Positions 41,885 through 62,466 of a stretch of 64,000 nt of DNA are shown piece after piece. Each line of letters starts with the position of its first letter. Position 1 is the stretch's first letter. The notes under the pieces were generated by a model, which saw only the letters and a list, made by a program, of their open reading frames with translations, had not been told where the DNA came from and did no database searches. The stretch comes from Eubacterium sulci ATCC 35585. Lineage in GTDB: Bacteria; Bacillota; Clostridia; Peptostreptococcales; Anaerovoracaceae. The position numbers and the translations under genes are program-made. Location of the stretch: positions 1,302,001 through 1,366,000 of the forward strand of contig CP012068.1 in the NCBI GenBank assembly GCA_001189495.1. Reading direction: 5' to 3'.

Positions 41885-41922
41885 ACTTATGAATTGTAGA
41901 GATATTTAAGGAGGATTTAATA

Positions 41923-42093: not shown

Positions 42094-42111
42094 TTACACG
42101 CAATCCAAAAT

Positions 42112-42139: not shown

Positions 42140-42140
42140 T

Positions 42141-42806: not shown

Positions 42807-42850
42807 GGACAATCCTTTCTACATAACTTAAAAGCCTAGCCTTGTTTAGC

Positions 42851-42878
42851 TAAAAAAACCCGCCTTAAGTGGCGGGTA
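42851..42878 (-). terminator. Terminator of acpP
   Basis: Minus strand: ACCCGCC, a six-base loop, GGCGGGT and then TTTTTTA; a perfect short GC-rich stem straight after the acpP stop codon. Confidence 0.92.
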
Positions 42879-42882
42879 AAAA

Positions 42883-43113: not shown

Positions 43114-43175
43114 TGTTACCCTCCGATTGATATAATTATAATATAAAATTTCCACTTTGCCAAATCACAAAAATT

Positions 43176-43204
43176 ATTATAGCTTGCACTCTATCCCAAT
43201 GCAA
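43176..43204 (-). promoter_or_regulatory. Promoter of acpP
   Basis: Minus strand: TTGCAT, a 17-base spacer and a perfect TATAAT, about 60 bases before the acpP start codon. Confidence 0.7.
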
Positions 43205-43272
43205 CACATTTTTATTTTTTTATATTTCTATTATATGTAGCTTTTTTACCTATGCCTTAAATACTCGAGATT

Positions 43273-45201: not shown

Positions 45202-45215
45202 CTTTCCTCCAAATT

Positions 45216-46250: not shown

Positions 46251-46692
46251 CTACTTCCTCCAAATTCATAAGCACCGCATCCTCTATAGGTTCAACATAG
46301 TATCCCTTTCTGATTCCTACGCAAGAAAACCCTGCACTCTTATACAGTGCTTTTGCTGCTATATTGCTCTCCCTGACCTCTAAATACCAGCTTTTGATAC
46401 CCTGCTCTCTCGTAAGCTCAAGAACATGGTTTAAAATAGTCTTTCCAATACCAAGTTTTCTTTTCTCTGGCAAAACAGCAACCTTATTTATCTGGCACTC
46501 ATCAAGCAGAGTCCAGATTCCTATATATCCGACTATGTTATCTTCTCCATCACAAGCGATAAAAAAATTCGCCAGCTTATTTTCGCAAATCTCTTGCTCT
46601 ATGGCATCAAAACTCCAAGGCACGCTAAAGCATGCATTCTCAATTCTTACGATGTCATCTATATCCCTTTGATCTGCTGTTCTGATAATCAA
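46243..46692 (-). CDS. rimI: Ribosomal protein S18-alanine N-acetyltransferase RimI
   Basis: A 149-residue GNAT acetyltransferase. The acetyl-CoA-binding segment is INKVAVLPEKRKLGIGKTIL, followed by WYLEVRESNIAAKALYKSAGF, a strong RimI signature. Translation starts at TTG, overlapping the tsaB stop codon (TTGA); no ATG is better placed. It sits between tsaB and tsaD as in many Firmicutes and may acetylate other N-termini as well. Confidence 0.93.
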   Translation of the reverse strand: MIIRTADQRDIDDIVRIENACFSVPWSFDAIEQEICENKLANFFIACDGEDNIVGYIGIWTLLDECQINKVAVLPEKRKLGIGKTILNHVLELTREQGIKSWYLEVRESNIAAKALYKSAGFSCVGIRKGYYVEPIEDAVLMNLEEVDA

Positions 46693-47399
46693 CTCTTATA
46701 TCGCTCCATCTTTCTCGCCATCTCTTCTGCGAGTCTTCCATCCTTTAGCTTTTGTTCAGCCTCAGGAAGCCTCATGTACTCTGGCTCAAGCTGATCAAAA
46801 TCCAAAAGTTCTCCATCCTCAAGCTTTATACATGCGTATCTGCAGACCATATCAGCGCTTTGATTCATCTCATCTACCTCTGCGATATTCATACCGCTAA
46901 GTCTATCCGCATAAGCTATGACTCCATCTCCATACCATTTGATATCATCATATTCCTCTGCTACTTCTAGCACCTCGTCTAGCATATATGGTCCTGGAGC
47001 GAGAATTTCACTTCCGTCATTCCCATAAATAGCACCGTAGACTTGACCTCGTCTAGCATTGTATATTACTGCAACCTTGTTATCGCTATCTGCCTTCTCC
47101 TTGAAAATCTCCAGTGAGTTAACAGATATACACTTTTTGCCTAGAGTCTGTGCTAGAGTTTTCGCAGTGGCAAGCCCTATTCTGATTCCCGTAAAGGAAC
47201 CAGGTCCAACTGATACTGCAATTGCATCAAGTTCATTTAGAGAAATTCCAAGCTCATCTACCAGTTCCTTAATCATAGGCACAAGTTCGCGCAAATGACT
47301 CATACTATCTGTAGTCACTCTGTTAACAGTCTTTCCGTTCTCATCAACGATAGCGACTGAACCGACTTTTCCCGTTGTCTCTATGCCTAAAATGAACAT
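46689..47399 (-). CDS. tsaB: t6A biosynthesis protein TsaB
   Basis: Non-catalytic partner of TsaD in t6A formation. The 236-residue protein opens with MFILGIETTGKVGSVAIVDE and has ELDAIAVSVGPGSFTGIRIGLATAKTLA, which are characteristic. Its start overlaps the end of tsaE by 13 bases. Confidence 0.96.
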   Translation of the reverse strand: MFILGIETTGKVGSVAIVDENGKTVNRVTTDSMSHLRELVPMIKELVDELGISLNELDAIAVSVGPGSFTGIRIGLATAKTLAQTLGKKCISVNSLEIFKEKADSDNKVAVIYNARRGQVYGAIYGNDGSEILAPGPYMLDEVLEVAEEYDDIKWYGDGVIAYADRLSGMNIAEVDEMNQSADMVCRYACIKLEDGELLDFDQLEPEYMRLPEAEQKLKDGRLAEEMARKMERYKS

Positions 47400-47806
47400 T
47401 TGTAAACCCTTTCTCCTTCGGCTTTACCATACTCTAGAAATATGTACTTTGTGTTCTCTGGTAAGAGCCCCTCTATGATGTCAGCCCATTCTATAACGCA
47501 GATGCCACCTCTATCAAAGTACTCCTCAAGCCCAGCCTCAAAGGCCTCATCCTCTCCACTGAGCCTATACACATCAAAATGAAATAGAGGAAGTCTTCCA
47601 CTAAAATACTCGCTCACAATAGTAAAAGTAGGGCTTGTAATCATCTCCTCGATGCCAAGCCCCTTTGCTATTGATTTCGTTAAAGTTGTCTTTCCGGTGC
47701 CAAGGTCACCGATAAGAGCAAGAACATCGCCGGCCTCTAGTTTCTCGGCCAAAGCAGATCCAAACTCCTCAGTTTCCCTTTCCCCACGAATTACATATTC
47801 TATCAA
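47387..47806 (-). CDS. tsaE: tRNA t6A biosynthesis ATPase TsaE
   Basis: ATPase that turns over the TsaBD complex. The 139-residue protein has Walker A GDLGTGKTTLTKSIAKGLG, then SPTFTIVSEYFSG and the FHFDVYRLSG / VIEWADIIEGLLP segments. It starts at TTG overlapping the pepV stop codon (TTGA), with AAGGA upstream. Confidence 0.96.
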   Translation of the reverse strand: MIEYVIRGERETEEFGSALAEKLEAGDVLALIGDLGTGKTTLTKSIAKGLGIEEMITSPTFTIVSEYFSGRLPLFHFDVYRLSGEDEAFEAGLEEYFDRGGICVIEWADIIEGLLPENTKYIFLEYGKAEGERVYKCSF

Positions 47807-49257
47807 ATCGAAAAATCCTTCTGTGAAAGCTTATATATAGCTTTTGCATAAATCTTAGTCATTGTCTCAAATCTATCAAGAGCAAGTCTCTCATCTCTCT
47901 GATGCATTACATCTGGATCTCCTGGGAACAAAGCTCCAAAGGCTACATGATTCTTCATCGAACGCGCATACGTACCCCCACCTATGGTCATAGGAGGAGT
48001 GTCCATATCCCCAGTAAACTCCTGATATACCTCCATAAAGGTCTTGATCATCGGATTATCCACATCAAAGAAGATAGGATCCTGTGCACTCTTCTTCACA
48101 AGACCGATATCATACTTTTCTATAGTCTCTGTAATACCCTTGTAAACAGCATCCTCTGTGCACCTAACTGGATATCTTACGTTTATTGTGAGGCTCAAAA
48201 CCTTTCTATCAAAGCTTAAAACTCCGACATTGAACGTGAGAGATCCCGATACATCATCGCTCATCTCACATCCCATTCTCTCTCCACCTAGGTCAAAACC
48301 TATGTGGTCGTTATAGAATCCGATGATATCATTAACCTGTTCATCAGCGAAATTAAGTCCTCCGAGGAAATCCATCAAAATGGAAATAGCATTTAGTCCC
48401 TTAGATGGTGAAGCGCCGTGGGCAGACTTACCCTCTACACTTATCTCAAGGCTTTTACCTACGCCCTTGCAGTTAATCTTAACTGGGATTCCATTTATCT
48501 CCTTGTGAGCATCTCTATATTCTGCTACCTTGTCCTTGATTGTATCATAAACAGCTGTATCCTGTGAATTGACTACTGCACGAGCTTTTTCTGCAACCAT
48601 ATTGGATGCTGCTCCGCCCTCAAGGTTTCTTAGCTGAAGTCCCTTAGCATGGCGCTCAGCAAACTTCTTTACAAGGTCGAATGACAATATTCCTTTCTCG
48701 CCATGAACGACTGGAAAGTCTCCATCAGGAGTAAATCCGTAGTCAGCTGGTCCAATCTTCTCTAGATATTTATCCATACCTATCCAATTGGTCTCCTCAT
48801 CTAGACCTAGAATAAGTCTAATTCTGGCACCAGGCTCGTACCCAGCCTTCTTAAGTGCTCTCATTGCAAACAGTGCTGCAACAACAGGTCCCTTGTCATC
48901 GGTAGTTCCTCTGCCGTATATATATCCATCCGCAACATCACCGCTGTAAGGAGCAAAGCTCCATCCATCGCCTGCTGGTACAACGTCAAGATGCCCTAGG
49001 ATACCCATTATCTTGCCCTCATCTCCAAACTCAGCATGAGCTCCGTAATTGTCAGCATTATGAGTTCTAAAGCCCATATCCTCGCATGTCTTAAGCACAA
49101 GCTCAAGAGCATCCTGAACTCCCTGTCCAAAAGGATATACACTTCCATCAGCTGCAGTTACTGCATCGCTGCCTTCGCTATTTATTCTGATCAAATCCTG
49201 TAAAAACTGGATCTGTTCAGGCATATCATCTTCGATTATCTTGATATAATCCTGCAT
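47803..49257 (-). CDS. pepV: M20-family dipeptidase PepV
   Basis: A zinc dipeptidase, probably cytoplasmic. The start at 49257 (MQDYIKIIEDDM) has AGGAGAAG before it; 484 residues. Metal-site motifs: ILGHLDVVPAGDGW, GRGTTDDKGPVVAALFA and LGLDEETNWIG, with the end HQRDERLALD. A dimerisation lid lies between. It leads the tsaE-tsaB-rimI-tsaD chain with overlapping ends, although it is unrelated in function. Confidence 0.93.
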   Translation of the reverse strand: MQDYIKIIEDDMPEQIQFLQDLIRINSEGSDAVTAADGSVYPFGQGVQDALELVLKTCEDMGFRTHNADNYGAHAEFGDEGKIMGILGHLDVVPAGDGWSFAPYSGDVADGYIYGRGTTDDKGPVVAALFAMRALKKAGYEPGARIRLILGLDEETNWIGMDKYLEKIGPADYGFTPDGDFPVVHGEKGILSFDLVKKFAERHAKGLQLRNLEGGAASNMVAEKARAVVNSQDTAVYDTIKDKVAEYRDAHKEINGIPVKINCKGVGKSLEISVEGKSAHGASPSKGLNAISILMDFLGGLNFADEQVNDIIGFYNDHIGFDLGGERMGCEMSDDVSGSLTFNVGVLSFDRKVLSLTINVRYPVRCTEDAVYKGITETIEKYDIGLVKKSAQDPIFFDVDNPMIKTFMEVYQEFTGDMDTPPMTIGGGTYARSMKNHVAFGALFPGDPDVMHQRDERLALDRFETMTKIYAKAIYKLSQKDFSI

Positions 49258-49315
49258 TTGTCTTCTCCTAATCAAATTGGTGTGGCATGCACGTCCCTGC
49301 TAATGTATCTGCACA

Positions 49316-49540
49316 TTAGTCAATAGCCACTACTCCCTTAACCTCAGGTATGCTGCTCATCAAAACCTGCTGCACTATATTTGAAAGTGTCATTCTTGCA
49401 CCAGGGCATCCTGCACAGTGCCCCTTAAGTCTAACCTGTACTACATTGTCCTCTGTAATTCCTGCAAGCTCGATGTCTCCGCCATCTCTCTGTAAAATCG
49501 GTCTAATCTGATCAAGTACTGCTTCTACCTTCTTTTCCAT
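49316..49540 (-). CDS. NifU C-terminal-like Fe-S scaffold protein
   Basis: A 74-residue NifU/Nfu domain. The conserved CXXC is in LKGHCAGCPGARMTLSN and the start VEAVLDQIRPILQRDGGDIEL is typical. GAGG precedes the ATG. It may carry or transfer Fe-S clusters for the many ferredoxin-like proteins of this organism. Confidence 0.94.
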   Translation of the reverse strand: MEKKVEAVLDQIRPILQRDGGDIELAGITEDNVVQVRLKGHCAGCPGARMTLSNIVQQVLMSSIPEVKGVVAID

Positions 49541-49617
49541 GCTGTACCTCTTTCTATATTAAATGTGCAATATGTTAAATTTACTTATAAAAAGTCAACT
49601 AATATTATACTATACTT

Positions 49618-49653
49618 AAAAAAAACTCGCAAGAAATGGAGATACTTGCAAGT
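49618..49653 (-). terminator. Terminator of the permease-DUF917 operon
   Basis: Minus strand: ACTTGCAAG and CTTGCGAGT form a nine-base stem (one wobble) with an 11-base loop, followed by TTTTTTT. The upstream arm of the stem belongs to the left copy of the 86-base repeat. Confidence 0.85.
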
Positions 49654-49727
49654 TCTGCTATTTTGAAACAACTAAGATAGACTTGTCATATAGACGAATA
49701 TCCTATCTGGCAAGCCTATCTAATATA
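49642..49727. repeat. 86-bp direct repeat, left copy
   Basis: Matches 53605-53690 in the same orientation with a single base difference (C/T, near position 56 of the repeat). It begins ATACTTGCAAGTTCTGC and ends CAAGCCTATCTAATATA. Inside, AGATAGACTTG and CAAGCCTATCT form an imperfect inverted repeat, and AGATAGG occurs twice in tandem on the minus strand. It lies just past the stop codon of the DUF917 gene. Confidence 0.97.
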
Positions 49728-49733
49728 TTTTGA

Positions 49734-50840
49734 TTATAGCTGCTTAAACGATACATACTCCATATCAAAACCCAATGGCTTCGGTCCAAATACATCCAGT
49801 CCTTTTACAGTAGTCCAAATTTCTGGTGATGGCAGTCCAACAATATACATCTTTTTTCCAATCCCAAAATTAGGTGTTGTTATAACTCCGCTGTCTTCTC
49901 CAATCATACATATAAGATCAGGAATCATGATATTCACTTTATCATTTTTGTATCCTACCATATTTTCATTTTTTATTAGAATACGATATGTTTCAGACTC
50001 ATATTCTCCAATTCCTTTAAGGTTAATTTCCCCAATATTGAAACCACCTTCTGTTTTCCATGGCATATCAGTGACTTCTCCATGAAAAAGAACCTTTCCA
50101 TCATATTTTTCTGCAATATTTTGTGCTGCAATGCCTCCATTTCCATCTGATAATCTTAATGTTTGTCCTACTTTAAGTGCATAGCTTAGCATTCCAGGTA
50201 TTGTTGATTTTTTATATTGTTTACCTGTCATTGGATGATCAGTAACACCAACCTCATTATCACTCACTACTGCAATTGCCCTTATCATTTCTTCTGCCCT
50301 AAAATCATTGCATACTTTTTCAAATATAATTGATTCGCCAAATTTTGTTGCTACTGAAACAGGATATATCGGCATATTCTCTATAAAGTATGTTGAATGT
50401 TGAAGTTCCGGTACTGCCCTACCTGCCGGGTCAGCGTCGACTATAGGGAGATTAAGTATCGCTGCGATGTGTAATGCCTCCGCTGTATTTTCACCACCAA
50501 GCTCTGTAGAAGATACGGCACAGAATTTTTTTCCCATATATTTTTCAAGCTGCTTAAATGCTAATGCAGCAGATGAGTCTTCTAGCTTTGGTAAATATTT
50601 AAAATTAGAATCAACATCAACCTCTTCTTTGTTTTCTTTAGGTGCTCCGCAGCCATAAGGTGTTGCTATAAACTCCTCATCCGAGAGTTCAGCTAGGGAA
50701 ATCATTCTAAACAATTTACCATTTTCTATATCCTTATTTACAAGTTCTAATCCCTTTTCTAGGCTTCCACCACCGCCTGTACCTAATATAGCACATCCAT
50801 GTAATAAATCACTAATCTGTTGTTTTGTAAGCTCATTCAT
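49734..50840 (-). CDS. DUF917 family protein
   Basis: The start at 50840 (MNELTKQQISDLLHG) has AGGAGG seven bases before it; 368 residues. The family start LHGCAILGTGGGGSLEKGLEL is clear, with ADPAGRAVPELQHSTYF in the middle and MEYVSFKQL at the end. DUF917 proteins are found with hydantoinase/oxoprolinase-type genes, cytosine or hydantoin permeases and PucR regulators; their reaction is unsettled. It overlaps the permease end by eight bases, so the two form one operon. Confidence 0.9.
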   Translation of the reverse strand: MNELTKQQISDLLHGCAILGTGGGGSLEKGLELVNKDIENGKLFRMISLAELSDEEFIATPYGCGAPKENKEEVDVDSNFKYLPKLEDSSAALAFKQLEKYMGKKFCAVSSTELGGENTAEALHIAAILNLPIVDADPAGRAVPELQHSTYFIENMPIYPVSVATKFGESIIFEKVCNDFRAEEMIRAIAVVSDNEVGVTDHPMTGKQYKKSTIPGMLSYALKVGQTLRLSDGNGGIAAQNIAEKYDGKVLFHGEVTDMPWKTEGGFNIGEINLKGIGEYESETYRILIKNENMVGYKNDKVNIMIPDLICMIGEDSGVITTPNFGIGKKMYIVGLPSPEIWTTVKGLDVFGPKPLGFDMEYVSFKQL

Positions 50841-52110
50841 TTTTTGCCTCCTTAAATTTATTTTCTCTAGATAGAGAAGGTACAAAATGCTCAATTAATG
50901 CATAAATAATAGCTGATGCTACAATTCCTAAGTAATCTATTTGTAATACGAAAGAAATTATAACGGATATTATCCATGCAATTACACCTACGAAATTCCA
51001 TCCATCTACAGAATGCCAATTTTGCGGCTTTCCTTTTCCAATAATGAAATAATCTACGAACATGATTCCGCCAACAGGGCATACTAAATATGCTAGCATA
51101 CTCAATACATCCTCAACCCTTGTCAAAATACCACATAGTCCTAATATTATTCCTATTGTTCCGGCTATTATTGTAACTTCTCTTCGCCTATTATCTGGGG
51201 TATTAAAGGCCATGACAAAATTAAGTCCTGCGCTGTAGGCATTTGATACATTTGTTGTCCATGCAGATAATATCAGTGATATTACTCCTAATAATGGTAA
51301 TCCTATTGTTATCAAGACCGAGCTAATATCAAAGTCATCTGTCATTTTTGTGAGCATAGCACCCAATATCAATGTTATAACTCCCATTGGAAAAACACCT
51401 AAAACAGTTGATTTCACAGTGTCTTTACGTGACTTTTGAAATCTTGTTACATCTGCGGCGGTTATTGTGCCTACAGCATAAAAATCAAATGATAAAGCTA
51501 CGCCTCCCATAAAACTCATGCTGCGTGTAACTTCCTTGTCAAGAGATCCTATTCCGTACTGTTTAATAGCCATTACGGTACCTGCAAACATAACAGCAAG
51601 TAATAAAGGGATTGAAATTACATTAAGTTTTTCTATTGCAGCCATACCAAATACCGCGGTAATTAGCATTATAAATCCCCATCCAACAGCTGATACTACT
51701 ACAGGTATATTTATATCAAAAGAAGACTTTATGAAATTCGAAAATGATTGTGCACATTCTTGATTATTGATACCAAACCATCCTACTAAATTAATTGCAT
51801 ATATTACGCTTATAATATATCTAGCACCTTTTTTCCCAAAAGTAGATTCCGCAAGTGAACATGATGCTAGACCTAAATCACTTCCCATAAATCCTAAAAT
51901 TGACATTATAACGACGACTATAACATATCCGATTGTTCCTGAAGCGATTGCCTCCCAGAATGGCATTTTGCCTGCGAGAATTGCGCCTTCAAGGAAAGAA
52001 GGGATACATACACAAATACCTGCTTGTACAAAAGCTAGAGATAACCAACTTTGACGTTGATCCTTTGTCTTTGCAGTCAGTGCATTCGATTCTACTTGAT
52101 TCCTGCTCAT
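50833..52110 (-). CDS. NCS1-type cytosine/purine permease
   Basis: A 425-residue membrane protein with about 12 helices, of the CodB/nucleobase-cation-symport-1 type. Family-like stretches: SWLSLAFVQAGICVCIPSFL, ISVIYAINLVGWFGINNQECAQ and SFDFYAVGTITAADVTRF. Substrate likely a nucleobase, hydantoin or similar nitrogen compound. GGAGG precedes the ATG. It lies with DUF917 opposite a PucR regulator. Confidence 0.88.
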   Translation of the reverse strand: MSRNQVESNALTAKTKDQRQSWLSLAFVQAGICVCIPSFLEGAILAGKMPFWEAIASGTIGYVIVVVIMSILGFMGSDLGLASCSLAESTFGKKGARYIISVIYAINLVGWFGINNQECAQSFSNFIKSSFDINIPVVVSAVGWGFIMLITAVFGMAAIEKLNVISIPLLLAVMFAGTVMAIKQYGIGSLDKEVTRSMSFMGGVALSFDFYAVGTITAADVTRFQKSRKDTVKSTVLGVFPMGVITLILGAMLTKMTDDFDISSVLITIGLPLLGVISLILSAWTTNVSNAYSAGLNFVMAFNTPDNRRREVTIIAGTIGIILGLCGILTRVEDVLSMLAYLVCPVGGIMFVDYFIIGKGKPQNWHSVDGWNFVGVIAWIISVIISFVLQIDYLGIVASAIIYALIEHFVPSLSRENKFKEAKNE

Positions 52111-52245
52111 AAAATACCTCCATGTCAGTTAATTCCTAATACGAATGTTTTAATATACCCAATGATATATATGACCCGGTACCTATAATATTATCAGAGT
52201 ATTATTACAAAAGCTTTGGGCGTCTCTCTAAAAAAAAGCATTGTA

Positions 52246-52265
52246 AATTGTGCACCTGCACAATT
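52246..52265. promoter_or_regulatory. 20-bp palindromic operator candidate
   Basis: AATTGTGCA, CC, TGCACAATT: a perfect nine-base inverted repeat with a two-base centre in the pucR/permease divergent spacer. Its right arm touches the -35 element of pucR. It is the best candidate site for PucR binding. Confidence 0.65.
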
Positions 52266-52292
52266 GTCTTGCCATTACATTATGCATATAGT
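52264..52292 (+). promoter_or_regulatory. Promoter of pucR-like gene
   Basis: TTGTCT, a 17-base spacer and TATAGT, about 60 bases before the start codon; the -35 box overlaps the palindrome by two bases. Confidence 0.6.
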
Positions 52293-52353
52293 AGAATTAA
52301 TATCATAAGTTTAAAATACCATATTAAGATAGGGAAACGAGGTGGATTTCAAC

Positions 52354-53577
52354 ATGAGTATAACCGTAAGAGATTGTCTTTCTCTTCCCTCTCTAAGTTC
52401 AGGAAAGGTCGTTGCAGGTGAAAGAGGGCTTGACAGTATAGTAACAAGTGTTTCTGTTCTTGAATTTGATGATTACGAAGACAACTTCTACATACCTAAT
52501 GAAATAATTATTACATCATTTTACTGTGCTAAAAATAATGTAGATGAACAATGTAAGATAATACGTCATTGCAAAAATAATGGCGATGTAGCTTTAATCT
52601 TATTTTATTCAGATGTAATTTTGAAGGGGATTGATAACAAACTCATACAAACAGCCGATGAAAACAACTTTCCTATAATCGTTCTCAAAGGTAACGATAT
52701 GGGCCTTGTTTATAGTGATGTAATTGCAGATATAATGGAAGCAATTATAACTGATAGACAACTAGGAAAAGATTTAGAGATCAAATTTAAAGATGGGTAC
52801 TCTTGGGAAAAAAATATAATTACCTATGTTCTTGATAATGGATTCGATGAAAAAGATAAATTTGCAAAGAAAATAGCACTATCTGCAAGTGAATTTAATT
52901 CTATGCTGATTATATCCACTAAACACAACTCTTCTGTTTTTACATTAGAGCAATGTGCAATAGTAAAAAAATATTTAAACAAAGTTGGAATTTCTCATAT
53001 TGCAGATGTCAAAGACGGAAATATAGTTGTAATGTTACGGCACACAAAATTCAGCCGTGAAAAAAATAATACTGTTAATGATTCTATTGATAAATCATGG
53101 CTGAATGAACACATAAAAATTATATATAAGATTTTTGAAGCGGTTGTTGATACTGTAATTTTTTTATTTGACAATATTAACGATATTAAAGACTTTGGTC
53201 ATAACTACAGACTTGTATCAGAGTCTAAAAAAGCACTTTTCACTATTTTCCCCCAAAAAAATTTGATATTTCCATCACACTTAAGATTTTCTTTACAGTG
53301 CAAAGACTTGTTATATAACTACATACCCGTAACAACCATTTTGGATCCAATGATTTCAAATGACCACTATGAAGTCATTGAAACTCTTGCAACATTTATG
53401 TTAGATGCTGATTTTGAGGTAAAGCGTGCAGCTGAGATAATGTATGTTCATAGGAATACAATTCTTTACCGAATAAAAAAGGCAAATATCTTACTTGGTC
53501 AAGATATATCTAGCTGGCCATTCTGTCACGAACTCTACTCTGCTATAGCAGTTTGGAGGTTGAAAAATAATATTTGA
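52354..53577 (+). CDS. PucR-family transcriptional regulator
   Basis: The ATG at 52354 (MSITVRDCLSLPSL) is chosen because AGGTGG lies eight bases before; 407 residues. The N-terminal PucR domain (to about 125) is visible as DCLSLPSLSSGKVVAGERGL and SVLEFDDYEDNFYIPNEIIITSF. The C-terminal helix-turn-helix (HTH_30) has LATFMLDADFEVKRAAEIMY and VHRNTILYRIKKANILLG. PucR proteins control purine or amino-acid catabolism. It diverges from the permease-DUF917 pair, which it probably regulates. Confidence 0.93.
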   Translation: MSITVRDCLSLPSLSSGKVVAGERGLDSIVTSVSVLEFDDYEDNFYIPNEIIITSFYCAKNNVDEQCKIIRHCKNNGDVALILFYSDVILKGIDNKLIQTADENNFPIIVLKGNDMGLVYSDVIADIMEAIITDRQLGKDLEIKFKDGYSWEKNIITYVLDNGFDEKDKFAKKIALSASEFNSMLIISTKHNSSVFTLEQCAIVKKYLNKVGISHIADVKDGNIVVMLRHTKFSREKNNTVNDSIDKSWLNEHIKIIYKIFEAVVDTVIFLFDNINDIKDFGHNYRLVSESKKALFTIFPQKNLIFPSHLRFSLQCKDLLYNYIPVTTILDPMISNDHYEVIETLATFMLDADFEVKRAAEIMYVHRNTILYRIKKANILLGQDISSWPFCHELYSAIAVWRLKNNI

Positions 53578-53604
53578 TATGGTATTTATGAAAGTAAATT
53601 ACCT

Positions 53605-53690
53605 ATACTTGCAAGTTCTGCTATTTTGAAACAACTAAGATAGACTTGTCATATAGATGAATATCCTATCTGGCAAGCCTATCTAATATA
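53605..53690. repeat. 86-bp direct repeat, right copy
   Basis: The right-hand twin of 49642-49727, in the same orientation, 27 bases past the pucR stop codon. It begins ATACTTGCAAGTTCTGC. Unlike the left copy it has no adjoining complementary arm and T run, so it forms no terminator. The two copies bound exactly the DUF917, permease and pucR genes. Confidence 0.97.
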
Positions 53691-53734
53691 AATGTTTCTG
53701 TTTTATTTACAGTTGCATAAATGAAATATATTTT

Positions 53735-55471
53735 TTATCCAATCTTCCATCCTATTGCCTCTCTTCTTGAGTCAACGAATCTCTGGTAGATTCCGTCCTG
53801 CATAATAAGTTCATCATGGGTTCCATGTTGTTCAATTTTTCCTTTGTTTATAACAAATATTTGTTCTGCTTTCCTCACTGTTTTCAAACGATGCGCAATC
53901 ATTAAAACGGTCTTTTCTTTTGTCAGTTCTTGAATGGCTTCCATAAGATCCCTTTCATTTTCTGGATCTACATTAGCAGTCGCTTCGTCGAGTATGATAA
54001 TAGGTGCATCCTTCATAATTGCTCTGGCAATTGAGATACGCTGCTTTTCTCCCCCTGAGAGCGAAGCACCATTTTCTCCAATAACCGTATTATATCCATC
54101 TGGCAGAGCCATGATAAAATCGTGGCAACAAGCTTTCTTTGCGGCCATAATTACATCATCCATCGGTGTATTTGGCTGTCCAAAGCGAATGTTATTTGCG
54201 ATTGTATCATGGAATAGATATACATTTTGGAATACAAAACTAAAATTTTGCATCAAAGCGTCCATCGAATATTCTTTAACGTTCTTTTCGTCGAGAGATA
54301 TCATGCCTTTATCAACATCCCTAAATCGAGCAATCAAATGGCAAAGTGTAGTCTTACCTCCACCAGATGGTCCCACGAAAGCTACTGTAGTTTTTTCGGG
54401 TATTATCAAAGAAACATTATCAATAATTTTCTTCTTGTCATAAGCAAAATCAACACTGGATATTTCGATGTTGTCTGTTTTTGTGATATATTCTTCGCCA
54501 GATATATCCATTGGCTCAATACTCAAGGTTTCCTTTGCTCGTTCTACACACATATCTACCACTCGTAGAAGAGCAGAATATGCTCCCATCGTTTCAAGAC
54601 CTGAAAATACTATAAACGACATAATCATCATTATAATCGCTGTAAGTAGTTCCATGGACCCATTAAGATAAAAGCCAATTGAGGAAATCAAAATAACAAC
54701 TCCTGTGAGTTTCATCACAATGTTTTGAAACGGAATATACCTGTTACAAATCATCTCAAACTTAGTAGTCGTATCACCGGCCGTACGGATTGTATCGTCT
54801 AGTTTGTTTCTCCATGATGAAACCATATTGTAAGCTTTTACTTCTGGCATACCCTGAATATATTCTAGTACCCCTGATATCACTTCTGTGTCAACTGATA
54901 TCTTTTTTATAGCAGTGTCTACATTTGCTTTTCGCATTGCACGGTTTATTAAAGAAAATATTAAAACCCCTACAAGACAAATTATTCCTATTCTCCAATC
55001 AAATGCGAGGATCATCAAAACGATAATTGCTGTATTAAGAATTCCTTGAGTTGTAAGCATTACTACACGTGTAGCAACATCGCCTAGTTGTTCCATTACA
55101 TTAGTGGTAATTGTAGTTATTTGACCTAGACTATTTTCATTAAAGTACCCCATCGGTAAATATCTCAAATGCTCAGCTATTTCAATCCTTTTGTCGGCAC
55201 ACTCCCTATACCCCGCCTTACACTGCAGCATGGTGGATATGCCCCTCAGAAATGATTCAAAAATTACAGAAATGAGCAATATGCTAAATCCTCCAAGAAT
55301 CCTATCTCCAGATATACTATTTGAAAGAAGTCCATCCATAACAAGATAAATTGCTGGAAATTTACTTGCTTCGCAAATAGCAATTAAAACTCCAATTACA
55401 AGCGTATAATAAAACAGGCGTCGATTCTCTTTTGCACAGAAATTAAAGAACTTTTTGAGTGTGGTAATCAT
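53735..55471 (-). CDS. ABC half-transporter (YbtQ/IrtB-like)
   Basis: A 578-residue exporter-fold half-transporter: six helices (about 20-310) and an ATPase domain with Walker A VGPSGGGKTTLCHLIARF, Q-loop FVFQNVYLFHDTIANNIRFG and signature ASLSGGEKQRISIARAI. This type pairs with its neighbour to make a heterodimer; YbtPQ and IrtAB, which import metal-siderophore complexes in spite of an exporter fold, are the best-known relatives. The start overlaps the stop codon of the other subunit (ATGA). Confidence 0.88.
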   Translation of the reverse strand: MITTLKKFFNFCAKENRRLFYYTLVIGVLIAICEASKFPAIYLVMDGLLSNSISGDRILGGFSILLISVIFESFLRGISTMLQCKAGYRECADKRIEIAEHLRYLPMGYFNENSLGQITTITTNVMEQLGDVATRVVMLTTQGILNTAIIVLMILAFDWRIGIICLVGVLIFSLINRAMRKANVDTAIKKISVDTEVISGVLEYIQGMPEVKAYNMVSSWRNKLDDTIRTAGDTTTKFEMICNRYIPFQNIVMKLTGVVILISSIGFYLNGSMELLTAIIMMIMSFIVFSGLETMGAYSALLRVVDMCVERAKETLSIEPMDISGEEYITKTDNIEISSVDFAYDKKKIIDNVSLIIPEKTTVAFVGPSGGGKTTLCHLIARFRDVDKGMISLDEKNVKEYSMDALMQNFSFVFQNVYLFHDTIANNIRFGQPNTPMDDVIMAAKKACCHDFIMALPDGYNTVIGENGASLSGGEKQRISIARAIMKDAPIIILDEATANVDPENERDLMEAIQELTKEKTVLMIAHRLKTVRKAEQIFVINKGKIEQHGTHDELIMQDGIYQRFVDSRREAIGWKIG

Positions 55472-57231
55472 GCAAGCGCACCCCCTTCCGATTCATATAT
55501 GTCTTTCGCATAAATATGAGCCTCCCACATATTTTTGTAAAGATTACTGGAATTAAGAAGCTCAGTGTGGGTTCCTTTTGCCTCAATATTACCATCCTTT
55601 ATCACAACAATCTGGTCGGCATTAGTTATCGTAGAAAGTCTATGCGCTATCACAATAAGTGTCTTTTCTTTAGATAGTTCCGAAACAGACCTCTGAATAA
55701 CAGCTTCATTCTCAGGGTCAGTGTAAGCTGTCGCTTCATCAAGAATTAAAATTGGTGCATTCTTTAGCATTGCTCTAGCAATAGAAATACGTTGTCGTTC
55801 TCCCCCACTAAGATGAGCCCCACTGCCTCCGACAATTGTATCAAAACCATTCTCTAAGTCCATGATGAAATCATAACAGCCACTTTTTCGTGCAATATTT
55901 TCAACATCTTCGTTTGACGCAGACGGTTTACCCATGCGAATATTTTCTCTTATAGAAGTATTAAACAGAAAACTATCTTGTGACACATATGCTATTTGCT
56001 CATTGTAGTCAGATAGTGATATATCACGAATGTCAACTCCACCGATTTTGATATTTCCGTCATGTACATCCCACAATGATGCTACGAGGCGCGCTACAGT
56101 TGACTTTCCACTGCCAGAAGGCCCTACAAGCGCTGTCACACTTCCGTTTGGTATATTTAGATTGAAATTATGAAGTACTTCTTTTTCACCATATCCAAAG
56201 CAAATATTATTAAGTGTAATATCATGAGTCATAGGCAAATTTTTACTCGTTTCTGGGCGTTTCAATTCCGTAAGGTTCAATATATCATCAATCTCTTTGA
56301 AAATTGTAGATGCTTTTGTAATATCATCGCTATAGCTCATCACAGTAATGAGTGGTGTAATAAGCCCGCATGACAGTATAACAATCATAATGTAGTCTGT
56401 AAGATCAAGAGAGCCATTCATCGTAAAAATTGCACCAATAGGTAAAACTGAAAGCAATGTTGCTGGAGCAATCACTATACCGATTGAGAAAGGAATAATG
56501 CAAGACCTCATCCATTCAATGAAACTGCTTGCATTTTCCTTTGCAGCATCTACAAATCTCTCGTATGAGCTTTCCGCTTTTCCAAATGCCTTGATAACCT
56601 CAATACCACCTATATATTCTACTGCAGTATCATTTAAAATCTTTGTTTTGGTTTGCGTATTTTGAAACTGTTCATTGCTGTCTTTGAACATCCAAACAAT
56701 TGCAATTGCTGCAATTGGGAGCGTAGCAAGTGACAAAAGTGCCATACGCCAGTCAATCGCCATGATATATATAAATAACATAATTGGTGCACATAGATTG
56801 GCTGTAAATTCCGGTATTACATGCGATAAAATTGGTTCCATAGAATCAGTTCTCTCACAGATAATGTTTTTTAATTCTCCGCTTGGCATCCCCTGTACTG
56901 TGCCAAGTGGAAGACGCGATAGCTTATCTATAAGCAAAATTCGCACATTGCTGATTAGCTTAAAGGTTGTACGATGGGAAGTATTTGTTGAAAGGGTATG
57001 AAATATCACTCTAAATATCCAAAGCACGGCCATCAAAATTCCTTCCATCAGATATATATTAAAGTTCCTTTCTCCTGAAAGAAGTTTCTTTACAATATCG
57101 CCCATTAAAATATATGGGATGAGAGAAAAAAATACACCAATTACAGCAAAGATAACGCTTTTTATATATGCGCTCTTGTACGTTCCTGCGAATTGAAAGA
57201 TGTAATCCATAATTCCTTTTTTCTTTTCCAT
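55468..57231 (-). CDS. ABC half-transporter (YbtP/IrtA-like)
   Basis: A 587-residue partner of the next gene. It has six membrane helices and an ATPase domain with Walker A VGPSGSGKSTVARLVASL, Q-loop YVSQDSFLFNTSIRENIRMG, signature AHLSGGERQRISIARAM and DEATAYTDPENE. GGAG precedes the ATG. It lies 19 bases after an AraC gene that follows an ECF module; this order of genes recurs in Firmicutes and suggests uptake of a metallophore or similar ligand (inferred). Confidence 0.88.
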   Translation of the reverse strand: MEKKKGIMDYIFQFAGTYKSAYIKSVIFAVIGVFFSLIPYILMGDIVKKLLSGERNFNIYLMEGILMAVLWIFRVIFHTLSTNTSHRTTFKLISNVRILLIDKLSRLPLGTVQGMPSGELKNIICERTDSMEPILSHVIPEFTANLCAPIMLFIYIMAIDWRMALLSLATLPIAAIAIVWMFKDSNEQFQNTQTKTKILNDTAVEYIGGIEVIKAFGKAESSYERFVDAAKENASSFIEWMRSCIIPFSIGIVIAPATLLSVLPIGAIFTMNGSLDLTDYIMIVILSCGLITPLITVMSYSDDITKASTIFKEIDDILNLTELKRPETSKNLPMTHDITLNNICFGYGEKEVLHNFNLNIPNGSVTALVGPSGSGKSTVARLVASLWDVHDGNIKIGGVDIRDISLSDYNEQIAYVSQDSFLFNTSIRENIRMGKPSASNEDVENIARKSGCYDFIMDLENGFDTIVGGSGAHLSGGERQRISIARAMLKNAPILILDEATAYTDPENEAVIQRSVSELSKEKTLIVIAHRLSTITNADQIVVIKDGNIEAKGTHTELLNSSNLYKNMWEAHIYAKDIYESEGGALA

Positions 57232-57250
57232 ATATACATCACTCCTTTAC

Positions 57251-58273
57251 TTAATGTCTCTGATTTCGATATTCATTTGGAGTCATTCCACATATTTTTT
57301 TGAAGACAGCTCCAAATTTTGCTTGGCTCTTATAACCTACCGCCATTGCAATATCTAATATACTCATATCTTCTTTTTCAGTTAAATATTCTTTGGCTTT
57401 TTCGATACGATATTCCTTAAGCCACGTGTAGATTGGTTTTTCATATAGACTCTTGAAACAATCTTTAAGGGCTGTTTGAGAAATATCAAACCTCTCTGCT
57501 AGCCACTTAATTGTATATTCCTGATCTATGTTTTCGGAAATCAATTTCTGTACTGCTCGCGTTTTTTCTACCTTGTCTTTGTAGAAGTACGGACCTTCTT
57601 TTGTTATGTTATTTGCCTCAATTACAGACAAGCAAACTAATAATTCCAATACCTTGGTACGGAAATATGGAATTTTCGCACTATCTGGCACCATATACAA
57701 ATCCGTAAAAAGACGTTTAAGGGTTTCTTCCTCATGTATGATGAAATAACCATCTTCTCCACAGAATTTCCTTCGTATATCTGTAAGGTCAATAGGAATA
57801 CCTGCTGCATTCTCAGAAAGTGTTTTTTCTGCAATAGAATTTACAAATCCTATTGTAATCCCATGATAGTGATTAGTTGGAAAATAGTTCATTCCTTTAT
57901 GATGAACACGGGAATCAATACAGATATTGCCAGGCTTTTTTATATAATACATACAGTTATCCGATTCCATCGTAAGACTGCCCTCGCGACAATAATCCAC
58001 TGCAAACATCGTATCTGTAGCCTGATACATGGAATGATACTGCGACATATGAAAATCGTTATATATTAAAAATACACCGTCAAAGACCCGGTAGATAATC
58101 ATATCTCCCTCGCCTGTCTCATTTTCCAAGCGAATTACAATGCAATCGTCTGTCTGAGCTAAAACTCTATATTCTCCAATAGTTCCAAAGCCATAAAAAG
58201 CATCTTGAAGTCCATCAGATATAGTATTATCATTTTCCGTCTGTTCATCAAAGGCATGAATACCCCAAGCCAT
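57251..58273 (-). CDS. AraC-family transcriptional regulator
   Basis: The ATG at 58273 (MAWGIHAFDEQTEND) has GGAGGAGG, inside the end of the ECF ATPase gene, just before it; 340 residues. The N-terminal part (to about 225) is an unclassified sensor region. Two helix-turn-helix units follow: YTIKWLAERFDISQTALKDCF and MSILDIAMAVGYKSQAKFGAVF, with FKKICGMTPNEYRNQRH at the end. It sits inside the transporter operon it probably controls, like YbtA with YbtPQ. Confidence 0.92.
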   Translation of the reverse strand: MAWGIHAFDEQTENDNTISDGLQDAFYGFGTIGEYRVLAQTDDCIVIRLENETGEGDMIIYRVFDGVFLIYNDFHMSQYHSMYQATDTMFAVDYCREGSLTMESDNCMYYIKKPGNICIDSRVHHKGMNYFPTNHYHGITIGFVNSIAEKTLSENAAGIPIDLTDIRRKFCGEDGYFIIHEEETLKRLFTDLYMVPDSAKIPYFRTKVLELLVCLSVIEANNITKEGPYFYKDKVEKTRAVQKLISENIDQEYTIKWLAERFDISQTALKDCFKSLYEKPIYTWLKEYRIEKAKEYLTEKEDMSILDIAMAVGYKSQAKFGAVFKKICGMTPNEYRNQRH

Positions 58274-58274
58274 G

Positions 58275-59666
58275 CTATACCTCCTCCATATTAATAACAT
58301 TATCACAGCAGCATTCTATGAATTCGCTGTCGTGTGTTACTGTAATTATTGTTCGTCCTTCTTCTTTTAATTGATTCAAAATATGTCCAACAGCATTCAT
58401 CTGCAAATAGTCTAAACCACTCGTTGGTTCATCTAAGAGAAGAACTGGCAGTTTCGACGCGATGGCACACGCTAGAGCGAGTCTCTGCTTTTGCCCTCCA
58501 GAAAGTGACATTGGGTGTCTGTCACAAAAGACTTCAAGTCCGACATCAGAGAGAATTTGTTTTGCTTCATCCTCATTTTCCTCTGGTTGACTAATCAATA
58601 CTTCATCAAGAACTGACTCTGTAAAAAGCTGATGATTCACATCTTGCATGACCATAAATATTTCACCAACACGTTTTTTACAGGTATAAGATTTTCCATC
58701 CAAATACATAATGCCACTATTTTTTCGTATACCACATATAGATTCCAAGAATGTGGTTTTTCCTGTACCATTCGTGCCAACAATAGCAGTCACTTTACCT
58801 TTTGGGATTTTCATTTCTTTGATAGAGAAAATCTGATGTTTTTTGTCATATGAGTAGTTGAAATCTTTAAGCAGGATAAAATCCCCTGAATTTGTATTAG
58901 CTTTGGCAAGACTTATTGGCGCTACCCTTTTGAGGGATCGCATGCCAAACCGTTTTGCATCATCCTCCGTGAAACTGATAAGTTCACTCTTTGGTATTTC
59001 CTTTTTTAAGGTGCCATTTTCCAGAATGATAACCCTATCTGCCAAATCCCAAACGTAGTTAATTCGATGCTCAGCAATTAGAATTGTTTTCCCTTCCTTT
59101 TTCCAACATTTGATCAATTCACGAAGATTTTCGGCTGCCTCGTAATCTAAATTTGCCGAGGGCTCATCTAGAAGGATAATTTCTGGTGCAAGAACATCAA
59201 TTGAAGCACAGGCGATTTTTTGCTTTTCTCCACCGGAGAGTTCAAAAATATTTCGATCCATCAGCGGTTCTATTTGAAAATCTCTTACAGTTCTACTAAT
59301 GCGATCTAATATTTCCTTCTCTGGAAATGCTAAATTCTCCAAACCGAATGCAAGTTCGCTCGTAGTATCAACATTGAAAAATTGTGAACGTGGATTTTGA
59401 AAAACTGTACCAATTATTCCAGCCCTATCTTCAATTCTGACTTCTTGCATATTCTTACTATCTATATATATTTCACCTTCGACTTTTCCGCTATAAAACT
59501 CTGGTATTAATCCATTCAATAACCTCAAAAGAGTAGATTTTCCACATCCAGAAGTTCCTGTTATAAGAACGCATTCTCCTTTTTTTACAGTCAAAGAAAG
59601 ATTACTAATACTCTTTATCTTTGGCGTTGCATCATAGTAAAAGCTGACATTATTAAATTCAATCAT
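58275..59666 (-). CDS. ECF transporter double ATPase
   Basis: The ATG at 59666 (MIEFNNVSFYYDATP) overlaps the end of the T-component gene (ATGA); 463 residues. Two ABC domains are fused: GTSGCGKSTLLRLLNG with LSGGEKQKIACAS, and GTNGTGKTTFLESICG with LSGGQKQRLALACA, each followed by a DEP[ST] Walker B. This is the CbiO/EcfA-A' type that powers vitamin or metal uptake together with a T and an S component. The AraC gene follows after one base. Confidence 0.92.
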   Translation of the reverse strand: MIEFNNVSFYYDATPKIKSISNLSLTVKKGECVLITGTSGCGKSTLLRLLNGLIPEFYSGKVEGEIYIDSKNMQEVRIEDRAGIIGTVFQNPRSQFFNVDTTSELAFGLENLAFPEKEILDRISRTVRDFQIEPLMDRNIFELSGGEKQKIACASIDVLAPEIILLDEPSANLDYEAAENLRELIKCWKKEGKTILIAEHRINYVWDLADRVIILENGTLKKEIPKSELISFTEDDAKRFGMRSLKRVAPISLAKANTNSGDFILLKDFNYSYDKKHQIFSIKEMKIPKGKVTAIVGTNGTGKTTFLESICGIRKNSGIMYLDGKSYTCKKRVGEIFMVMQDVNHQLFTESVLDEVLISQPEENEDEAKQILSDVGLEVFCDRHPMSLSGGQKQRLALACAIASKLPVLLLDEPTSGLDYLQMNAVGHILNQLKEEGRTIITVTHDSEFIECCCDNVINMEEV

Positions 59667-60388
59667 GCCAAGACCCCCAAAAGCCAATAGATCAATGTTA
59701 AAACAACAAATAGAAAAATTACATAATCCGCCCATCCTAAACCGATTTGACAAATATTTGTGCGTTTCTTTTGCTTTCCGAGGCCTCTTGTAATGGCTGA
59801 AGCTGACAATTCTTCTCCTATCTTCGCCACGCATGTAATAATTGGAACAATTCGGTATTCCAGCACTTTCCCAACCTTACCTCCTCCAAACCTGATTCCT
59901 CGCATTTTCATGGCTGCACGGATTGAATCCCTTTCCTCACGAATGGTTGGAAAAAGGCGAAACATGACACACATAGGAATTGTTATTGCATCTGGCATAT
60001 GTAGTTTCTCCATTGCTGCCTTAAACTCGCTAACTGTTGTTGTATTGATTACATATAAACCCATCATATAAGTAGGAAGAAATCGATTAACAAGCATAAT
60101 GATAATTAACATCATATTTGCCATGACACCCTTTACATGTGGAAATGCAGTGCACTCTAAAAAGTAAATCACACTCAGAACAATTAGGCCTAAAATGCAA
60201 ATCCTATATCTCTTCGCTGTAAGTAATAGCAAGAATGGAAGGAAGGCAAAGGCAATTCGAAACCAAAACAATCTACTTCCCCCAGCTGTCGATAAAACAA
60301 GAACTGATTCTACAAGAATAAGAAGTAGTTTCGTCCTAGGATCAAGTAAACTCTTTTTTCTATGGGATGTCCATGTAGCTTCAATCAT
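59663..60388 (-). CDS. ECF transporter T component
   Basis: A 241-residue CbiQ/EcfT-type membrane protein. The coupling helices carry the two expected motifs, AAMKMRGIRFG and ASAITRGLG, and the start SLLDPRTKLLLILVESV is typical. It overlaps the S-component gene by four bases (ATGA) and the ATPase gene likewise, so the three are translated together. Confidence 0.92.
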   Translation of the reverse strand: MIEATWTSHRKKSLLDPRTKLLLILVESVLVLSTAGGSRLFWFRIAFAFLPFLLLLTAKRYRICILGLIVLSVIYFLECTAFPHVKGVMANMMLIIIMLVNRFLPTYMMGLYVINTTTVSEFKAAMEKLHMPDAITIPMCVMFRLFPTIREERDSIRAAMKMRGIRFGGGKVGKVLEYRIVPIITCVAKIGEELSASAITRGLGKQKKRTNICQIGLGWADYVIFLFVVLTLIYWLLGVLA

Positions 60389-60978
60389 GCAATTCCTGCC
60401 CTCTCAAAATGCTTTTTCAACAAAGCTTTGCCTATAAAACCTCCGATAATACCACAGATAAAAGTCGCAATTAGAAGAACAAAATACATCCAGCTTGGAG
60501 TAAGCTTTACGACAGTATCAATATATTCCTGTCCATAATTAGATCTTCCAGCAAAATAATCAGCCTTTTGTAAAAATAATGGTAGGTAGTTTCCGCATGA
60601 CCAAAGAGGAAATATTCCAGTTGTAAGAATAGCAGAACGCATACTCTTATACCTACCATTCCAATAAACGAGTTCTGCAAGAGCTCCCGTAACTATTGAA
60701 AATGGAATAGGCACCCATGTCATACCCGTTAAAAACATTAAAATACCCATAATAAGGCTCATTATTAGAATCATGCCAGGTTTCTTTACTTTCGTAAGGA
60801 AAAGCATAAAAGGAATTCCACCAATGATTCCGACCATAGATGAAAGCAGTATGAGAAAAATTGGAATAAGTCCTGTCATAGCAAGTGCCATAACAATTAC
60901 AAAGTAGATCGCCGCATAGATTCCGATATTGATAAAGTCTCTACCATTCAATTTATTTCCTGTTTCTTGTTTACTCAT
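60385..60978 (-). CDS. MptD-like ECF transporter S component
   Basis: A 197-residue membrane protein with about five or six helices, of the Trep_Strep/MptD type (NGRDFINIGIYAAIYFVIVM start; GITWVPIPF-like segment TGMTWVPIPFSIVTGALAEL; NYLPLFLQKADYFAG). S components bind the substrate; for this group it is not established. It is the first gene of the ECF-AraC-ABC unit, behind a spacer with two inverted repeats. Confidence 0.82.
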   Translation of the reverse strand: MSKQETGNKLNGRDFINIGIYAAIYFVIVMALAMTGLIPIFLILLSSMVGIIGGIPFMLFLTKVKKPGMILIMSLIMGILMFLTGMTWVPIPFSIVTGALAELVYWNGRYKSMRSAILTTGIFPLWSCGNYLPLFLQKADYFAGRSNYGQEYIDTVVKLTPSWMYFVLLIATFICGIIGGFIGKALLKKHFERAGIA

Positions 60979-61003
60979 AAAAGTTTAATCCTTTCTATTT
61001 TAA

Positions 61004-61024
61004 TTTAGTTAGATATAGCTAACA
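61004..61024. promoter_or_regulatory. Inverted repeat upstream of the ECF operon (site 1)
   Basis: TTTAGTTAGATATAGCTAACA: GTTAG and CTAAC face each other about six bases apart. It lies 26 bases before the S-component start codon, where a repressor or the AraC protein could bind. A related site is at 61083. Confidence 0.4.
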
Positions 61025-61082
61025 CATATATGATAGCATGGTGTTCTATTTTTTTATATTCCATTTAGACATTTTTATTCTA

Positions 61083-61109
61083 TTTAGTTATAAGTTTTAT
61101 AAGCTAACA
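61083..61109. promoter_or_regulatory. Related operator-like sequence (site 2)
   Basis: TTTAGTTATAAG ... ATAAGCTAACA: the same outer sequences (TTTAGTTA and GCTAACA) as site 1 with a longer centre, about 80 bases further upstream. Otherwise the 376-base spacer 60979-61354 shows only two hairpins. Confidence 0.35.
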
Positions 61110-61134
61110 GATGTAACAAGAAATCTTAGACTAA

Positions 61135-61165
61135 TAAAAAAATCCAAGCAAAGATTACTTGGATA
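61135..61165 (-). terminator. Terminator downstream of the EIIC-type gene
   Basis: Minus strand: ATCCAAG, a nine-base loop, CTTGGAT and then TTTTTTA. Confidence 0.8.
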
Positions 61166-61226
61166 CGTCACACACACTTTTTGTCCTATAGCCCCATATC
61201 TAACTAGAAAATTTATCGTAACTTTA

Positions 61227-61354: not shown

Positions 61355-62425
61355 TTATATATTCAGCTTGTAGTCCCCATCCTTTATCTTTCCCATCTTG
61401 CGAAGCACTCTATCAAAGATCAAAGCGAGCACTGCTGGGAGCACGAAGTGCAAAATTGCAACTCCTGCTATTGTATGAGCATTTCCTCCCATTGTCGTAA
61501 ATGTTCCGATCTGTCCAACTAGGCCAGAGGTTCCCATTCCTGCTCCAAGCGGGCTATTTGTCATCTTAAACACCACTGTGCTAAGTGGCCCTGTTATCGC
61601 TCCCGCGAGGGTCGGTGGCACGAGTATATACGGATTCTTAATTATATTTGATATCTGTAGCATGGAAGTTCCAATTCCCTGTGCCACCAGGCCGCCAATT
61701 CCGTTATCACGGAAGCTGATGATGGCGAAGCCAACCATCTGCGCGCAGCAGCCTGCGGTTGCTGCGCCGGCGGCCAGTCCTGACAGCCCCAGCATCATAC
61801 AAAGCGCAGCACTCGAAATAGGGGCTGTGAGAGCAAGCCCTACTATAACCGAAATAACAATACCGAATGCAAATGGCTGCCACTCTGTGGCTGTCATAAT
61901 TACGCTTCCGAGGCCGTTCATCAGCTTTCCAATAGCTGGACCAACAAGGATGGCTACAACACCGCCACTTAGTAAAGTTAGCGCAGGTGTTACGATGATA
62001 TCAACCTTTGTCTCCTTAGAAATCATCTTACCGAGTTCTGCACCTACTGCAGCAGCTATGAATGCGCCTGCAGGACCGCCTGCGGCAGCTCCCATCATAC
62101 CAGTTACACAGCAGCTTATCATAACCAGCGCTGGAGCCTTAAGTCCAAAGGCAACTGCAACACCTATCGCAGCTCCCATGAGCTCCATCGCCTTACCACC
62201 TATCTCAATAAGTGTGTTTGCAATTGTTGTCTCCCCAAAGAAATTAATGGACTGCTGTCCAATTGTCTTCAGGATTAGACCTACAAGAAGCGAACAAAAT
62301 AATCCCATTGCCATCGCAGATAGAGCATCCTGAAGATATCTCTTACTGCTAAACTCTATATCCTTTCTCTTTAGAAAGGCTCTAAACCCCTTTGAATTTC
62401 CTACAGTATTGCTTATTTCTGTCAT
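61355..62425 (-). CDS. PTS_EIIC_2-type membrane protein
   Basis: The ATG at 62425 (MTEISNTVGNSKGFR) has GGAG before it; 356 residues. It is very hydrophobic, about nine or ten helices, with Gly/Ala-rich repeats (GMMGAAAGGPAGAFIAAAVG; APISSAALCMMLGLSGLAAG). It matches the PfoR-like EIIC_2 group, which resembles PTS EIIC but commonly lacks EIIA/EIIB partners, and none is nearby. It diverges from a NiaR-like repressor gene and has a possible NiaR site on its promoter, so it may carry a niacin-type NAD precursor rather than a sugar (inferred). Confidence 0.75.
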   Translation of the reverse strand: MTEISNTVGNSKGFRAFLKRKDIEFSSKRYLQDALSAMAMGLFCSLLVGLILKTIGQQSINFFGETTIANTLIEIGGKAMELMGAAIGVAVAFGLKAPALVMISCCVTGMMGAAAGGPAGAFIAAAVGAELGKMISKETKVDIIVTPALTLLSGGVVAILVGPAIGKLMNGLGSVIMTATEWQPFAFGIVISVIVGLALTAPISSAALCMMLGLSGLAAGAATAGCCAQMVGFAIISFRDNGIGGLVAQGIGTSMLQISNIIKNPYILVPPTLAGAITGPLSTVVFKMTNSPLGAGMGTSGLVGQIGTFTTMGGNAHTIAGVAILHFVLPAVLALIFDRVLRKMGKIKDGDYKLNI

Positions 62426-62466
62426 GTTCTTCTCCATAGTTAACATAAAAATATTTGACAAAGACT

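Follow-up and report, generated by a model that had tools for sequence, protein, structure and literature searches.

A direct-repeat pair around a DUF917 cassette in Eubacterium sulci, with one copy as the probable remnant of another DUF917 gene beside an acquired operon

Two near-identical direct repeats on either side of a group of genes raise the question of whether the genes moved in as a unit or whether the repeats arose in some other way. Such a pair, of 86 bp each, lies in a 64,000-nt stretch (the window, positions 1302001-1366000) of the one-contig, 1,739,380-base genome of Eubacterium sulci ATCC 35585, by which the species is represented. Between the copies are genes for a DUF917 protein, a permease and a PucR-type regulator (the cassette), and beyond the right-hand copy lies an operon for ATP-binding cassette (ABC) and energy-coupling factor (ECF) transporters. 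An earlier examination of the letters alone (the sequence-only reading) had suggested a unit that came in, or could be lost, by recombination between the copies, or else a recurring intergenic element. We consider it probable, at about 0.6, that the 86 bp are the hairpin-bearing 3′ untranslated region of DUF917 and that the second copy is the remnant of another DUF917 end beside the acquired operon. The features on which this reading turns are as follows.

49642..49727, minus strand: repeat copy 1 (native), a hairpin in the 3′ untranslated region just after the DUF917 stop; a diverged homologue stands at the same place in [Eubacterium] infirmum
49734..50852, minus strand: DUF917/S-Me-THD-like protein, intact copy (Pfam PF06032, PF20906)
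53605..53690, minus strand: repeat copy 2, one base different and without the second terminator arm (sequence match; fold z −2.93)
53707..53730, minus strand: probable remnant of another DUF917 gene, comprising its seven final codons and the stop (YISFMQL, then stop; peptide score 35)
49613..49656, minus strand: terminator-like stem (CTTGCAAG...CTTGCGAG) with a T run (RNA fold of 49620-49740, z −5.84)

The repeat pair and the DUF917 tail beside copy 2

As had been reported from the letters, the two copies are in direct orientation and agree at 85/86 positions; the single difference is a C/T placed in the hairpin loop. A 48-nt core pattern (up to 3 mismatches) matched the window at the two repeat sites only and was found 0 times in 100 shuffles. 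The 1.74-Mb genome holds no other full 86-bp copy, the remaining matches being 27 nt at 81% (E 0.845) and 14 nt (E 1.58). The inverted motif proposed for the repeat is present (AGATAG.CTTG...CAAG.CTATCT) and the imperfect hairpin folds better than shuffles (DNA z −2.39), whereas the proposed tandem motif is CCTATCT occurring twice per repeat at a spacing of six bases, which is direct but not strictly tandem.

Similarity between the copies extends past the 86 bp. After a 10-nt indel, at which copy 2 resembles E. infirmum in an alignment of both copies with the E. infirmum site, it runs for about 30 nt rightward (22/30 identical) into the 3′ end of DUF917. The minus-strand flank of copy 2 encodes LDKKYISFMQL and a stop; the intact DUF917 closes with FDMEYVSFKQL and a stop. 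Upstream of the seven remnant codons the resemblance continues weakly as DKK to 53739, overlapping the stop of the first ABC gene (ABC1). The BLOSUM score of the remnant peptide, 35, was reached by 0/60,000 background 50-nt windows taken from both strands of approximately the first 30 kb of the window. At the DNA level, the tail alignments beat all 1000 shuffles against both the own flank and the E. infirmum flank, and the own-flank score of 28 was reached by 7/3456 window 73-mers, three of which were the copies themselves. The case for a remnant rests on the peptide, on the stop that ends it and on its register relative to the adjoining repeat. Furthermore, the remnant probably belongs to this lineage, because its serine is common to the E. 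sulci DUF917, while E. infirmum and a genome of another genus in the same family (G020) have proline there. Inspection by eye found nothing like the remnant after the ABC1 stop in six relatives of the operon, Peptoniphilus included. What stands beside copy 2 is thus a 3′ fragment in frame to its stop and adjoining a foreign operon, as in the orphan 3′ end of a displaced gene. Taken together, the peptide with its stop, the register, the serine and the lack of anything similar in these operon relatives make a second DUF917 gene, of which the 3′ end was left stranded, the best reading of copy 2.

The copies differ at 6/24 sites in the tail, from the Y codon to the stop, but at 1/86 in the repeat (Fisher p 0.0004). 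The same 86 bp differ from E. infirmum at 28/86 aligned sites, with 14 gap columns (58/86 identical), and in the core at 13/52 (39/52 identical). This suggests that recombination between the copies homogenised the 86 bp as far as the first heterology to their right. Leftward, the unrelated flanks leave conversion no room to extend; the left flanks of the two copies aligned weakly, with a score of 17 for which no control was run.

Of the two, copy 1 is the native one, as it alone forms the terminator stem. The 5′ arm of the stem lies within copy 1, with the 3′ arm and T run just outside, and the left boundary of the repeat falls in the terminator loop; copy 2, situated between the convergent PucR and ABC genes, lacks the partner arm. 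The E. infirmum homologue likewise corresponds to copy 1. A probable role of the hairpin is to terminate or protect the DUF917 transcript made from the minus strand. Conservation of the hairpin in E. infirmum is not shown, since the repeat site there folds no better than shuffles (z −0.69; 51/200 as good). A simple terminator scan returned 0 sites with loops of 3-8 allowed, and the stem at copy 1 was not called because its loop is 11. The best Rfam match of copy 1 was the trpB motif, at 34.6 bits against a cut-off of 59 (E 0.0018); we do not count copy 1 as a member, and the match seems to reflect a general hairpin-plus-terminator shape. It was absent at the copy 2 locus and at the E. infirmum site in Rfam searches with E up to 5. 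No known structured RNA at or above the gathering score was found at the repeat; the sole such match in the window is a cobalamin riboswitch elsewhere, at 13236-13418 on the minus strand.

The 86 bp were also searched for in relatives. A degenerate 39-nt pattern covering the E. sulci and E. infirmum versions (up to 3 mismatches) matched 2/349 family genomes, E. sulci twice and E. infirmum once, at the same locus, and none of the 347 others. With the 86-bp query at E ≤ 0.1, 2/13 genus genomes matched, namely E. sulci and E. infirmum, the latter with a 20-nt hit (C2:1089170, E 0.02) that lies within a coding frame and is read as chance. The repeat had no blastn match in 50,697 phage and 72,556 plasmid records, and an exact 35-nt pattern had none in viral contigs. 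With two copies in E. sulci, one homologue at the same locus in the sister species and no others, the repeat is therefore specific to this locus. These counts gave no support to the proposed recurring intergenic element, and a dispersed element such as a repetitive extragenic palindrome (REP) or a miniature inverted-repeat transposable element (MITE) was rejected on them.

A resident cassette and an incoming operon

The genes and neighbours needed for the comparison with relatives are listed here.

49316..49540, minus strand: NifU-like gene, left neighbour at the ancestral site (from the empty site in genus genome G002)
50833..52110, minus strand: cytosine/purine-type permease, Transp_cyt_pur (Pfam PF02133)
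52354..53577, plus strand: PucR-type regulator, divergent (Pfam PF07905, PF13556)
53731..61109, minus strand: apparently horizontally acquired operon of ECF S (MptD/Trep_Strep), ECF T, double ECF ATPase, AraC and two ABC half-transporters (83.5% to Peptoniphilus)
61156..61203, plus strand: solo end of a Mutator-type insertion sequence (IS), right of the operon (matching one end of a 1345-bp E. infirmum IS at 87.5% over 48 bp)
61355..62461, minus strand: PTS_EIIC_2-type membrane protein, right neighbour at the ancestral site (from the empty site in G002)

Pfam confirmed the three genes named between the copies. It had further been stated that no integrase or transposase lies inside, and this agrees with what was found: the large genes are DUF917, the permease and PucR, no recombinase was found, and the other open reading frames of at least 80 aa are two antisense ones (81 and 95 aa, for which no family search was made). 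No further gene is evident between the copies.

As shown by alignment, window positions 40701-53589 match [Eubacterium] infirmum NCTC12940 in one piece at 84.5%, cassette included, and the alignment resumes at 61350; the cassette is thus resident, and 53590-61349 is the part without a counterpart at the E. infirmum site. In that species the cassette lies between the same neighbours, with one diverged homologue of copy 1 and no copy 2. Identity at four-fold degenerate sites between E. sulci and E. infirmum was computed for the cassette genes, nine flanking genes and the six genes of the ABC/ECF operon. DUF917, the permease and PucR gave 57%, 63% and 62%, within the 45-79% of the nine flanking genes. 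The cassette therefore appears older than the repeat pair, since E. infirmum has it without copy 2 and with a flank-like four-fold identity.

The site was then compared across the genus in 10 stretches from 9/11 other genomes (G007 and G011 were left out), none of which encoded any of the three cassette proteins. G002 has an empty site, in which M20 and NifU are followed after 41 nt by the PTS_EIIC gene. The single-copy, cassette-free site that the sequence-only reading had proposed looking for did not turn up there, as G002 had no match to the repeat pattern. In G003, G006, G009 and G012, NifU lies 0.2-0.95 kb from a 3H-domain gene; G004, G005, G008 and G010 have neither of the right-hand neighbours next to NifU, or stop at a contig edge, and are uninformative on the site. 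G020 carries the same three genes together (78, 86 and 61% identical); the 20 kb read around its cassette contain none of the neighbours of the E. sulci locus that were tested for, and no such repeat was seen on reading the sequence downstream of its DUF917. The repeat pair is thus not present wherever the cassette sits. Short tandem repeats with a unit like CTTGACACCGTCTTTCGACAATCCCAGA occur right after the G020 DUF917 (L127, about 10400-10550).

DUF917 was detected at E ≤ 1e-60 in 22/212 family genomes of completeness ≥85. Among the 13 genus genomes, four had a match at E ≤ 0.001; close copies were confined to E. sulci and E. infirmum (90%), the others being 27-32% identical, and a second close copy was found in none. 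Because it is absent at the G002 site and recurs as the same three genes in G020, the cassette is an accessory unit, and the simplest account is a gain that predates the divergence from E. infirmum. The proposal of a unit that came in by recombination thus holds for the accessory nature of the cassette but not for its route, since E. infirmum has the cassette without copy 2; entry through the repeat probably did not occur. Loss of the cassette by recombination between the 99%-identical direct repeats is possible.

The cassette had also been described as more AT-rich than its flanks, and its G+C content is indeed 0.339, against 0.417 for window 40701-49540 on the left; the ABC block on the right is likewise low, at 0.362. 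The E. infirmum cassette has 0.332 against 0.42 to its left, and the low G+C is therefore not a sign of recent arrival. Elsewhere in the window, 14001-22000 is an AT-rich stretch with a G+C of 0.32-0.35 in 2-kb steps.

The arrival from outside that the sequences most clearly point to at this locus is the ABC/ECF operon, not the cassette. Over 7386 bp the operon is 83.5% identical in DNA to that of Peptoniphilus rachelemmaiella, its closest relative among the 80 loci retained out of 144, versus 71% to E. infirmum; four-fold identity over the six genes is 53-67% to P. rachelemmaiella and 31-38% to E. infirmum. Relatives of the ABC1 protein occur in Lachnospiraceae, Treponema and Peptoniphilus among the loci listed. 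In E. infirmum the operon is sited elsewhere, flanked by a proC-like gene and an acyltransferase gene; E. sulci lacks it at the equivalent position. About 670 bp with no match to the E. infirmum stretch (L033, reverse complement, 6887-7554) occupy that place in E. sulci. The relatives in these three groups, together with the different sites in the two sister species, point to transfer, and given also the closer match to P. rachelemmaiella than to E. infirmum, the operon seems to have landed independently in both species by horizontal transfer.

To the right of the operon lies the solo IS end. The E. infirmum IS that it resembles (L138:373-1717) is a 1345-bp, Mutator-type element with 25-bp inverted ends and a PF00872 transposase; paired ends about 1.3 kb apart occur at at least 11 places in E. 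infirmum, and two copies that were fetched are identical. The E. sulci genome has 8 matches to the IS end in all, the query included.

Proposed history and its rivals

We propose that the three-gene cassette would have entered between the NifU and PTS_EIIC genes before the split from E. infirmum. A duplication in the E. sulci lineage, of the whole cassette or at a minimum of the DUF917 end, would then have placed a second such end beyond PucR, and the ABC/ECF operon would have replaced the rest of the second copy. Recombination between the direct copies would since have kept the 86 bp near identical, while the useless coding tail decayed. Genome comparison underlies the first step and the foreign ancestry of the operon, and sequence underlies the remnant; the three later steps, as events, we infer. 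Homology-facilitated illegitimate recombination has been described in three competent species and, at low frequency, in E. coli (PMC3240628), and we infer that it may have acted at this locus.

Several points weigh against this history. Four of the 3456 window 73-mers, at three unrelated places, equal the own-flank DNA score of the tail by chance, and rarity at the DNA level is therefore moderate. A search right of the operon (61195-61345) for traces of a second permease or PucR gave nothing that shuffles did not equal, and duplication of the whole cassette is not shown for that reason. The argument for conversion rests on 24 and 86 sites, the 24 having been chosen after the alignment was seen, and constraint on the hairpin within this lineage could likewise keep the copies alike.

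The missing right-hand remnant would be accounted for if about 130 nt of the DUF917 end had been copied as filler into the operon joint, so that no second full gene ever existed; the DUF917 end is the one remnant found, and the copied piece does sit at a joint. Such a templated insertion could not be recent, because the tail differs at 6/24 sites; these differences resemble those of an old duplicate, and the identity of the repeat would still call for conversion or constraint. We regard it as rather improbable, and a shade more so than a return of the cassette through the repeat, itself unlikely. In the latter case the operon first replaced most of a resident cassette, leaving the DUF917 tail and repeat, and a conspecific cassette fragment, circularised or anchored by the repeat, then recombined in. 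This yields the observed order of repeat, cassette, repeat, tail and ABC genes with an illegitimate joint only at the PucR end/left end of the repeat, and linear DNA in E. coli has been described as circularising by ligation and then integrating through a single crossing-over (PMC3240628). It also comes close to what was first suggested from the letters, and four-fold identities cannot separate a conspecific donor from descent. Re-entry, however, requires a loss and a regain where E. infirmum shows simple retention, and alone it leaves the greater divergence of the tail than of the repeat unexplained.

Taken further, the pair might be a live recombination switch through whose 86-bp hairpin the cassette repeatedly leaves and re-enters, this traffic keeping the copies identical beside a locus where a foreign transporter operon also landed; we think this doubtful. 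A small mobile hairpin (MITE, REP-like or a recombination site), inserted twice or serving as a point of cassette exchange, is very improbable. Two near-identical copies and an imperfect hairpin that beats shuffles as DNA and as minus-strand RNA at both copies are what such an element would show, but the genome holds two copies, the 2/349 matching family genomes have it at this one locus, and no phage, plasmid or viral contig matched. Moreover, the similarity runs into coding sequence, and reading of the flanks revealed neither terminal inverted repeats nor a target duplication.

Relation to known systems

The locus is ordinary genome history, in which the stranded tail of a gene most likely accounts for the second repeat copy. 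A direct-repeat pair can pass for the ends of a mobile unit; here, a sister species and a relative with an empty site indicate that the bracketed genes are resident and their neighbour is new. The two copies also form a natural pair for comparing homogenisation of the 86 bp with decay of the adjoining tail.

Integrative elements are bounded by direct repeats, and integron cassettes carry attC hairpins. The locus resembles both in having direct repeats with imperfect hairpins around genes, but no recombinase was found between the copies, the cassette appears to predate the repeat pair and there are no dispersed sites. A truncated tandem duplicate with a homogenised direct repeat is the ordinary outcome of segmental duplication and gene conversion. 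Here, too, are two direct copies, one by an intact gene and one by a stub, that are more alike than their flanks; unlike in that case, the stub lies next to an operon of foreign origin, and the rest of the second unit was not found as a remnant.

In the type VI secretion effector/immunity arrays of V. cholerae and in Rhs loci, orphan 3′ ends occur for which the authors propose, perhaps, homology-facilitated illegitimate recombination (PMC5361080). Those orphans differ from the present case, which would concern a metabolic DUF917 gene with an intact copy beside the remnant, and no toxin or immunity genes and no array. Common to both would be an incoming block that displaces most of a resident gene and strands its 3′ region.

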